Position numbers and translations under genes: made by a program
Part shown: positions 8,719-37,281 of the stretch, piece by piece
How positions within the stretch are numbered: position 1 is the first letter of the stretch
Layout of the letters: each line of letters starts with the position of its first letter
NCBI GenBank assembly: GCA_002796125.1
Contig: PCWA01000073.1
Span: 1-38,195, forward strand
From: Candidatus Ghiorseimicrobium undicola
Lineage (GTDB): Bacteria; Omnitrophota; Gorgyraeia; Ghiorseimicrobiales; Ghiorseimicrobiaceae
DNA: 38,195 nt
Direction of reading: 5' to 3'
Notes under the pieces: model-generated
What the model saw: the letters and a program-made list of their open reading frames with translations, nothing else
Databases searched by the model: none
Told to the model about the DNA's origin: nothing

Positions 8719-8732
8719 TATATAAATAAACC

Positions 8733-8924
8733 AAATTGCCTAAATTCGCCGGCCGGCTTGGCCTGATTTTGAGCAGGGCCTAACGCAGGCCGAGCGGGCA
8801 CGGTTGGCCTTTGATTGCCTGCCGGCCAGAGCGAGGCCGAGTAGCGGAGCGCGATTTTCCACGCCGGGGAAAATCGCGCGTTCCTGCGATAAATCGGGCC
8901 AAGGCGGCCGGCAGCGATACAAAA
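8733..8924. repeat. MITE-like interspersed repeat, long form, copy 1
   Basis: This copy fills most of the 345-base gap between the permease gene and the AsmA-like gene. The left terminus is AAATTGCCTAAATT (8733-8746), identical to that of copy 2. Three stem-loops follow: GGCCTG/CAGGCC (8760-8765 with 8786-8791), TGGCC/GGCCA (8805-8809 with 8824-8828), and a 12-bp stem (8849-8860 with 8868-8879). The first hundred or so core bases match copy 4 at about 94 percent by eye. The right terminus is degraded and abuts the stop codon of the 8925-10949 gene. No transposase is encoded. A 62-codon open frame inside it is a by-product of the repeat. Confidence 0.85.
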
Positions 8925-11511: not shown

Positions 11512-11895
11512 TTATTTTGAGGAATCATCGCCTTTTATGGCCTCTTCTAAGGCGGCGATTATATCTAAAGGCTGGATAGGCTTGATAAGGCATTTTTCTA
11601 TGCCGCATATCCGGATAAGCGGCCTATGTTCATCATTGGCATAAAATCCGGTCATGCCGATTACGGGGATATTTGCAAGCTTAGGAAGCTTGCGTAATTC
11701 AGCCGTAAATTTAAAACCGCTTACCGGGCTCATTTTTAAATCCACTAAAACAGCAGCGGGCATTATACCGCCTATCTGCGCAAGCGCTTCTTCAGCATCG
11801 GTAAAAAGATGGACTTTATAACCGCTCAATTTTAATGTTTCCGCGGCTTCTTCAACGAAAAGTTTATCGTCATCTATTATCATCACCCTGCTCAT
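11512..11895 (-). CDS. CheY-like response regulator receiver protein
   Basis: The ATG at 11895 gives 127 residues. It has AAGGAG seven bases upstream, whereas the longer frame begins with a GTG that overlaps that ribosome site. The protein is a lone receiver domain: acidic residues DDD at 8-10, phospho-acceptor Asp52 in VLVDLKMSPVSG, Thr in IGMTG and Lys in CLIKPI. No output domain is present. The leader carries a hairpin element shared with the gene at 27840-28013. It lies 73 bp after the HTH-receiver gene and may be cotranscribed with it. Signalling partners are not visible in the window. Confidence 0.88.
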   Translation of the reverse strand: MSRVMIIDDDKLFVEEAAETLKLSGYKVHLFTDAEEALAQIGGIMPAAVLVDLKMSPVSGFKFTAELRKLPKLANIPVIGMTGFYANDEHRPLIRICGIEKCLIKPIQPLDIIAALEEAIKGDDSSK

Positions 11896-11901
11896 TAAAC
11901 G

Positions 11902-11952
11902 CTCCTTCACAGTTAGTGAACACTTGCGCTTACAAGGTATTGCGCAAATGTT
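11902..11952 (-). promoter_or_regulatory. Structured leader element, copy A, before a receiver gene
   Basis: Read on the minus strand, a stem (arms 11942-11952 and 11919-11929, six paired core bases TTGCGC/GCGCAA plus outer pairs) encloses a 12-base loop at 11930-11941. A 17-base linker leads to the Shine-Dalgarno sequence at 11902-11907. The same arrangement, with the same linker length and similar linker sequence, is found at 28020-28071. The stem differs between copies by a compensated pair, and the loop is reverse-complemented. It is best read as a leader that controls translation or transcription of the downstream gene. The identity of the element is unknown. Confidence 0.6.
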
Positions 11953-13421: not shown

Positions 13422-13499
13422 ATTTTATCCTTTCTTTTTTTATTATAACCCAAATCAGGCGCAGAGTCAAAAACCAGCCCTATCTGGGCAGCATACTGA

Positions 13500-13595
13500 A
13501 AATTGCCTAAATTCATCTGCCCGCTCGGCCTGCGTACGCCCCGCTCAAAATCAGGCCAAGCCGGCCATGCTAATCCGCCGCAATTTAGGCAATTT
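13500..13595. repeat. MITE-like interspersed repeat, short form, copy 2
   Basis: This 96-bp element has perfect 14-bp terminal inverted repeats: AAATTGCCTAAATT at 13500-13513 and its reverse complement at 13582-13595. The inside, in reverse orientation, carries the first stem-loop of the long copies (GGCCTG/CAGGCC around a loop containing ATTTTGAGC). It lacks the other two stem-loops. It occupies the gap between the Cys-rich peptide and the CNNM-like gene and has no coding content. Confidence 0.85.
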
Positions 13596-13630
13596 ACTTT
13601 ACGCAACCCCCTATCTGCCGCCCGGATAAA

Positions 13631-18051: not shown

Positions 18052-18162
18052 CAATAAATTACTTAAATTGTAGTGGGCCAACCATGCCCGGTCGGCCTGC
18101 GTTACGCCCTGCTCAAAATCAGGCCAAGCCAGCCGTAAATAAATAATTTACGCAATTTATTG
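18052..18162. repeat. MITE-like interspersed repeat, short form, copy 3
   Basis: This 111-bp element lies between the erythrin and glutaredoxin genes. Its ends are inverted repeats that match at 16 of 18 positions (18052-18069 with 18145-18162). The core, in the same orientation as copy 2, has the GGCCTG/CAGGCC stem-loop with the conserved loop containing GAGCAGGGC. The second and third stem-loops of the long form are absent. The termini differ from copy 2 in the two central bases. The element interrupts what is otherwise a compact redox operon. Confidence 0.82.
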
Positions 18163-27839: not shown

Positions 27840-28013
27840 TTATCTCTTCTTTGCTTTTTTCCCGGGTTTGGCCTTTGCCTTAACCTTGGATTTTGGCTTC
27901 ATCGGCCGGCTGCAACACCAAAGCGTAGACTTGGAAATTCCGCACTCATCCACAATTATCTCTCTGCCGCAAGGAACACACTTAAGCTTGGCGCCTTTTT
28001 TAAGCTTTGCCAT
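27840..28013 (-). CDS. Desulforedoxin-like Cys protein with Lys-rich tail
   Basis: The ATG at 28013 follows GAAGGAGG and gives 57 residues; the longer frame opens with TTG inside the leader. Cys12-x2-Cys15 and adjacent Cys33-Cys34, followed by SRPM, form the desulforedoxin/desulfoferrodoxin-N metal site. An extra Cys is at 24. The last 20 residues are almost all Lys, Ala and Pro, an unusual addition that could bind nucleic acid or acidic partners. A strong promoter (28079-28108) and a structured leader (28020-28071) lie directly upstream. The following PNPOx-fold and rubrerythrin genes may share the transcript. Confidence 0.8.
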   Translation of the reverse strand: MAKLKKGAKLKCVPCGREIIVDECGISKSTLWCCSRPMKPKSKVKAKAKPGKKAKKR

Positions 28014-28019
28014 ATACCC

Positions 28020-28071
28020 CTCCTTCATAGTGAATGAACACTTACGCAATACCTTATAAGCGTAAGGTGTT
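28020..28071 (-). promoter_or_regulatory. Structured leader element, copy B, before a desulforedoxin-like gene
   Basis: On the minus strand a stem (28060-28071 with 28037-28047, one bulged base) encloses a 12-base loop (28048-28059) and is followed by a 17-base linker to AAGGAG. Stem and linker match the element at 11902-11952 at most positions. TTACGC/GCGTAA here replaces TTGCGC/GCGCAA there, a compensated pair. The loop is the near-exact reverse complement. The predicted transcription start from the promoter at 28079-28108 is at the first base of the stem, so the element forms the very 5' end of the mRNA. Confidence 0.65.
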
Positions 28072-28078
28072 TTGTCTT

Positions 28079-28108
28079 ATTATAAGCTTTATTTTCCTTA
28101 AATGTCAA
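28079..28108 (-). promoter_or_regulatory. Consensus sigma-70 promoter of the desulforedoxin-like, PNPOx, rubrerythrin genes
   Basis: TTGACA (28103-28108) and TATAAT (28079-28084), both perfect matches to consensus, are separated by 18 bases on the minus strand. The predicted start is near 28071-28072, where leader element B begins. The match in both hexamers makes this one of the clearest promoters in the window. Confidence 0.8.
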
Positions 28109-37022: not shown

Positions 37023-37080
37023 GCTTTATATTGATCAAACAGTTATTTTCTCATTGCCAAAAAAACTGATTACGTAAAAT

Positions 37081-37281
37081 AAATTGTGTAAATTCGCCTG
37101 CTGGCTTGGGCTGATTTTGAGCAGGGCCTAACGCAGGCCGAGCGAGCACGGCTGGCCTTTGATTGCCTGTCGGCCAGAGCGAGGCCGAGTAGCGGAGCAT
37201 AATTTTCCACGCCGGGGAAAATTATGCGTCCCCGCGAAAAATCGGGACAAGGCAGCCGTGAATAAACAATTTCGACAATTC
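37081..37281. repeat. MITE-like interspersed repeat, long form, copy 4
   Basis: This 201-bp element has inverted termini (37081-37094 with 37268-37281, matching at most positions) and lies between the divergent Rrf2 and ispH genes. It carries all three stem-loops of copy 1. The 12-bp stem (37197-37208 with 37216-37227) has ATA/TAT where copy 1 has GCG/CGC. The CTGGCC/GGCCAG stem is also retained. A 72-codon frame inside is a by-product of the repeat. Confidence 0.87.

Follow-up and report, generated by a model that had tools for sequence, protein, structure and literature searches.

The window, that is, the whole 38,195-nucleotide stretch of Candidatus Ghiorseimicrobium undicola DNA analyzed here, harbors two minus-strand genes that are preceded by hairpin leaders of the same layout. 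One encodes a desulforedoxin-like protein of 57 amino acids (positions 27840..28013), assigned to the Desulfoferrod_N type with Pfam, and the other a receiver-domain protein (11512..11895; Response_reg, Pfam PF00072). A sequence-only reading of the window had described the two matching leaders, at 28020-28071 and 11902-11952, and inspection of the sequence confirmed that both are present.

Upstream of the desulforedoxin-like gene, a phylum-wide covariance model (R2) identified a complete double-hairpin element at 28024..28070 on the minus strand (E = 1.4e-13). On this strand, positions 28070-28038 read ACACCTTACGC-TTATAAGGTATT-GCGTAAGTGT, followed by a second hairpin, a GGAG motif, and the ATG at 28013. 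The first hairpin, h1 (28038..28070), consists of ACAC-(c)-TTACGC, the loop TTATAAGGTATT (28059-28048) and GCGTAA-GTGT, and its pairs are backed by covariation in 117 relatives. The second hairpin, h2 (28024..28037), is formed by TCA-TTCACTA-TGA followed by A, which can also be read as TTCA-TTCACTA-TGAA; its pairs covary as well. The GGAG of the Shine-Dalgarno sequence (SD; 28020..28023) abuts h2 on the 3' side and is taken to be host sequence, as empty sites in relatives hold the same motif.

The second copy reads AACATTTGCGC-AATACCTTGTAA-GCGCAAGTGT at 11952-11906 of the minus strand, followed by TTCA-CTAACTG-TGAA, GGAG and the ATG at 11895. Both its h2 (11906..11920, TTCA-CTAACTG-TGAA, supported by the sequence and R2) and the GGAG of the SD of the receiver-domain gene (11902..11905) lie on the minus strand, while h1 (11920..11952) was matched by R2 on the plus strand (E = 6.1e-8) and is therefore inverted relative to its own h2 and to the downstream gene. 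This inversion accounts for the earlier observation that the two loops are nearly reverse complements of each other, which proved to be real. The 17-base linker described between stem and SD is indeed there, but it is itself the second hairpin, TTCA...TGAA, rather than a mere linker. Both sites in the window are copies of a double hairpin of about 46 nt. Judged by folding energy (z = -0.8 and -1.5), the two leaders are unremarkable, so that these copies alone would have been insufficient as evidence.

A sigma-70-like promoter is predicted from the sequence at 28079..28108 on the minus strand, with TTGACA at 28108-28103, TATAAT at 28084-28079 and a spacer of 18 nt, and transcription from it would begin at about 28072. 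For the copy at 28071 it is thus plausible that transcripts begin with the first base of the stem, as proposed. This was discarded as a general rule, because the copies overall show no excess of -10-like boxes at a set distance upstream and most of them are located inside operons.

Furthermore, another palindromic repeat, GC-rich and about 180 bp long, is dispersed over the window (8727-8910, 37075-37258, 13486-13609 and 18076-18135). Two of these copies are 89% identical, and the others are partial or inverted. A stretch related to this repeat was also found upstream of the element copy in L053.

Distribution and structure of the element

A search for the right half of the element, allowing up to three mismatches, gave nine occurrences in the 1.83-Mb genome and none for a reversed-pattern control. 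The sequence-only reading had suggested building a covariance model and searching the genome and its relatives, and this search indeed returned further copies before ribosome sites with covarying stems: a model made from ten copies yielded 21 matches at E ≤ 1 in the genome of the window (about 20 copies) and matches in 13 of 59 relatives. In a sample of the phylum, the element was present in 78 of 384 Omnitrophota genomes, some of which contain 50 or more copies; several genomes of one genus reached the scoring ceiling of this search. With the first model, 20 matches were obtained in a complete, one-contig Omnitrophota genome (NZ_CP019384.1; G056, with L156/L199), which shows that the element is no artifact of assembly.

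Scanning of 84,980 prokaryote genomes with an SD-free pattern, in which three stem positions of each arm could be any base, matched at least 111 stretches, and all but one of the titles listed were from Omnitrophota. As known so far, the element is essentially confined to this phylum. The sole exception among the titles listed, L138 (SBBM01000011.1), is a typical copy under the title of a Planctomycetales metagenome-assembled genome, which may reflect misclassification or transfer. A phage origin was ruled out, with no match to the same pattern in 2.9 million viral contigs, and a literature search of open-licence papers found no description of such a repeat in Omnitrophota.

The alignment of copies defines a conserved architecture. 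Hairpin h1 comprises ACAC, an unpaired C, six more stem pairs, a loop of 11 to 12 nt (TWAnnnGGWATT) and the complementary arm, and h2 has a stem of 3 to 6 bp, a loop of 3 to 7 nt and a terminal AA abutting the GGAG of the SD. The termini are ACACC...AA, with ACACC at one end and GGCAA or GACAA at the other. A CsrA-type GGA loop was ruled out, as many loops contain GGT or lack GG.

Among the 84 scan matches listed, which carry several different stem sequences, 250 of the 252 unconstrained stem positions were paired, compared to a mean of 188 and a maximum of 203 in 2,000 shuffles. In 117 distinct aligned copies, 96% of the cells pair, and both sides had changed in 257 cells, against 76 after shuffling (0/500) and 11 to 47 in slid controls. 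The stems thus vary freely yet stay complementary, so it is probably the folded strand that is recognized or required. G-U pairs account for 1.5% of standard pairs, compared to 5.0% for the stems of tRNAs encoded on the same contigs, an imperfect yardstick, and this low share leans towards a DNA hairpin.

Position of copies relative to genes

To describe the genomic context, we used one element-rich genome (G108), in which 1.19 Mb was searched with the phylum model, yielding 55 matches, of which 53 were used and formed 50 sites. At 47 of the 50 sites, the gene that follows has the same orientation as the element, and its start codon is mostly 8 to 16 nt away. The start is at most 16 nt away in 33 of these 47, and most of the others are nested inner copies at 38 to 41 nt. 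Random intergenic placement would give 54% in sense orientation and 7% within 20 nt; individual gene calls, which came from a simple automatic caller, may err, but the contrast to this null is large. Similarly, about 80 of the 115 scan matches listed precede a start codon and four lie at the 5' end of a tRNA gene, a preference for start codons that emerged even though the scan pattern contained no SD. In Velamenicoccus archaeovorus (G056), by contrast, this SD rule is not followed, and copies lie in longer spacers. In this genus, V. archaeovorus and UBA6210 (G027) carry a variant, AGGCCCTTCGC...GCGAAGGCCT, with h2 as ACCC-...-GGGT (L081-L109), which occurs in clusters of several hairpins in longer spacers.

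The element generally leaves the GGAG unpaired rather than masking it, and h2 normally stops before this motif. The mean unpaired probability of the SD was 0.70 with the element and 0.52 with shuffled elements, and it was higher with the element in 64 of 80 cases. Five copies (L170, L176, L191, L221 and L289) share TCCTCC as the 5' arm of h2, which gives TCCTCC-nnnn-GGAGGA; in L170, L176, L221 and L289 the GGAGGA is at the SD position, and the SD would be sequestered. In four further copies (L054, L067, L110 and L154), the SD lies 5' of the element and the ATG follows 0 to 1 nt after h2. Folding of copies located between SD and ATG would restore normal spacing, but these "split SD" cases, while real, are too few for proof, and an upstream SD was found for only part of the copies that lack one downstream.

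Copies abutting tRNA genes were observed at L149, L185, L230, L083, L094, L099 and L125. In several of these, the mature tRNA begins within the 3' arm of h2 (e.g., GCGCGG|GAGTAG), an overlap that could hinder or guide processing by RNase P.

The genes downstream of the element are unrelated and include tuf, rpsG, rplF, smc, mreB, hisB and thrC; tuf, rpsG, rplF, rpsT and rpsF among them are highly expressed. Only 33 of 117 downstream proteins fall into homologous groups (14 groups), and the genes share no common function, mostly differ between genomes and form no regulon.

Turnover of copies between related genomes

Comparison of orthologous genes revealed that copies are frequently present in one genome and absent from its relatives. 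In the family of the window, eight of nine element-bearing genes have orthologues without the element wherever orthologues were found. In G000, these are the genes for an M16 peptidase, HisB, a Trm112-like protein, RpmF, OmpH, a DUF4330 protein, HPr and the desulforedoxin-like protein, whose only orthologue detected in the family, from G002, is not preceded by a copy. Of the thrC genes, just those of G000 and G001 carry the element, with G002 showing a spacer of two bases at this position. When 24 G108 sites were compared with G172, a genome of the same genus, 14 were empty there, 9 were filled and 1 held a deletion remnant (ACACCCCGCGC-AAGGAGG).

In sister species, many orthologous sites are empty and keep an intact SD, and clean insertions 5' of GGAG were evident from TTCTAATCA|GGAGG in G172 versus TTCTAAGCA[47 nt]GGAGG in G108 and from CAAAAAA|GGAG in G156 versus CAAAAAA[46 nt]GGAG in G108. 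Empty sites could in principle be losses, but the short intact spacers argue for insertion. An apparent SD-like duplication is visible at an aminotransferase site (AAGGAGTT...AAGGAGAT), and target-site duplication is suggested at ndk and rpsF and absent at the lipoprotein and hyp77 sites. A consistent target duplication thus has examples both for and against it.

In at least three families, copies were also found nested within one another: the inner copy sits in the h1 loop of the outer one, mostly between ..GG and AATT. Tandem copies occur as well, and a decayed copy is located at rpsT in G117. Other copies persist, with tuf, smc, pilT and rplF each carrying one in all of three sister species, and at smc and clpP in-place changes affect both sides of h2 pairs. 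Retention at these four genes could mean function.

We conclude, with a probability of roughly 0.8, that the double hairpin is a non-autonomous mobile (dispersed) element of Omnitrophota of about 46 nt. Copies would spread as a folded single strand, more likely of DNA than of RNA, whose structure, bulged C and h1 loop would be read by an enzyme; as the element encodes nothing, that enzyme must be supplied in trans. Insertion would be targeted to the SD, or to the purine context specific to its strand, and this target would set the orientation. Self-folding of the element, with the SD left open, is the probable reason why essential operons tolerate copies, including those before tuf, rpsG, rplF, rpsT, rpsF, smc and mreB. 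The element may affect translation, and any effect on translation or mRNA stability would be secondary. Taken further, and tentatively, a structure-read 46-nt unit that homes to SD sequences and to its own h1 loop, moved by an enzyme, may time and again have remodeled the leaders of core genes on their 5' side, such as those for EF-Tu and ribosomal proteins, in many families of the phylum.

Examination of Y1 transposases and RVT_1 domains identified no mobilizing gene. Y1_Tnp genes are equally common in element-rich and in element-poor or element-free genomes, their number is not tied to that of the elements, and no element lies within 1.5 kb of 20 Y1 genes. RVT_1 was present in G056 and G027 and absent from G000, G001, G003, G108, G156, G172, G293 and G128; reverse transcriptase-based spread as a retroelement was rejected, as most of the element-rich genomes lack this domain.

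A somewhat unlikely alternative that deserves consideration is that a mobile element has been widely co-opted as a general 5'-untranslated region (5'-UTR) module, which might enhance translation, act as a standby site or protect mRNA 5' ends, without being specific to any gene. The highly expressed genes downstream, the open SD, the retention of copies in three species and the paired changes in h2 are consistent with this. However, the turnover is high, with the 14 of 24 sites that are empty in the sister species, the decayed rpsT copy and the deletion remnant all arguing against it.

The sequence-only reading had considered a new cis-regulatory RNA or a protein-binding operator, an interpretation that is partly supported. 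Its statement that no known riboswitch or thermometer has this form held, with no Rfam match at the gathering threshold or at E ≤ 1. A dedicated regulatory role fared worse, as there is no regulon, orthologues in sister species usually lack the element, and copies are nested, in tandem, decayed or deleted. A riboswitch, thermometer or protein-bound leader that controls downstream translation through h1 and h2 would fit the sense orientation, the fixed position before the SD, the conserved h1 loop, the covarying stems and the pairing of TCCTCC with GGAGGA at the SD in L170, L176 and L221. It is nevertheless improbable, because the downstream genes are unrelated and turnover is high; copies at tRNA 5' ends, an h2 that normally ends before GGAG and an SD that is more open than with shuffled elements also speak against it.

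We regard a REP/REPIN family mobilized by a RAYT (a Y1 HUH transposase) as similarly doubtful. Small palindromic intergenic hairpin repeats and Y1_Tnp genes in element-rich genomes agree with it, but the foot of the hairpin bears no conserved GTAG/CGTC tag (GTAG occurs only inside h2 of one subtype), and the Y1_Tnp genes show neither the distribution nor the proximity to copies described above. That the copies serve a regulator as an operator in double-stranded DNA is very improbable in spite of the palindromic DNA and the promoter adjoining the 28071 copy, since stem sequences free to vary while pairing are the opposite of a sequence-specific operator and most copies lie in operons with no promoter at a fixed distance.

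Relation to known elements and significance

Like riboswitches and RNA thermometers in Rfam, the element forms a structured leader before the SD, but it has no Rfam match, is mobile and precedes neither functionally coherent genes nor conserved sites at orthologues. The attC sites of integrons act as a folded strand with an unpaired base, and their stems are variable while the structure is kept. The Omnitrophota element would resemble them in all these respects but occurs as dispersed single sites 5' of chromosomal genes, without a cassette array and, judged by eye, without a common GTTRRRY box.

Mitochondrial double-hairpin elements (DHE/RHE) of fungi, algae and sponges are short, dispersed, thought to be mobile and kept in transcripts without removal (PMC2800124). 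The element described here likewise has two adjacent hairpins, is dispersed and differs in presence between relatives. We note this likeness without claiming homology; the Omnitrophota copies differ in residing on bacterial chromosomes in strict sense orientation beside the SD, in nesting within themselves at one fixed loop position, and in their conserved h1 loop and unpaired C.

REP/REPIN sequences with RAYT are also small, palindromic, intergenic and non-autonomous (PMC3733652, PMC3116915), whereas the Omnitrophota element has no linked RAYT, lies directly before the SD and combines few G-U pairs with freely covarying stems. MITEs and Rickettsia palindromic elements share non-autonomous insertion and folding in transcripts (PMC10969869) but are found in AT-rich spacers or in frame rather than upstream of start codons. 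The present element is only 46 nt long, with target duplication at some sites but not at others and no parent insertion sequence found, and it has no terminal inverted repeats, its ends being ACACC on one side and GGCAA or GACAA on the other.

Among bacterial palindromic repeats, a mobile unit at translation starts, including those of EF-Tu and ribosomal-protein genes, with fixed position and orientation is out of the ordinary. Genes whose site is filled in one sister species and empty in another provide a natural experiment on how a structured insert beside the SD affects translation. The finding also cautions against reading a regulon into hairpin leaders that genes of such genomes have in common, and it points to an undiscovered mobilizing system in a poorly studied phylum.
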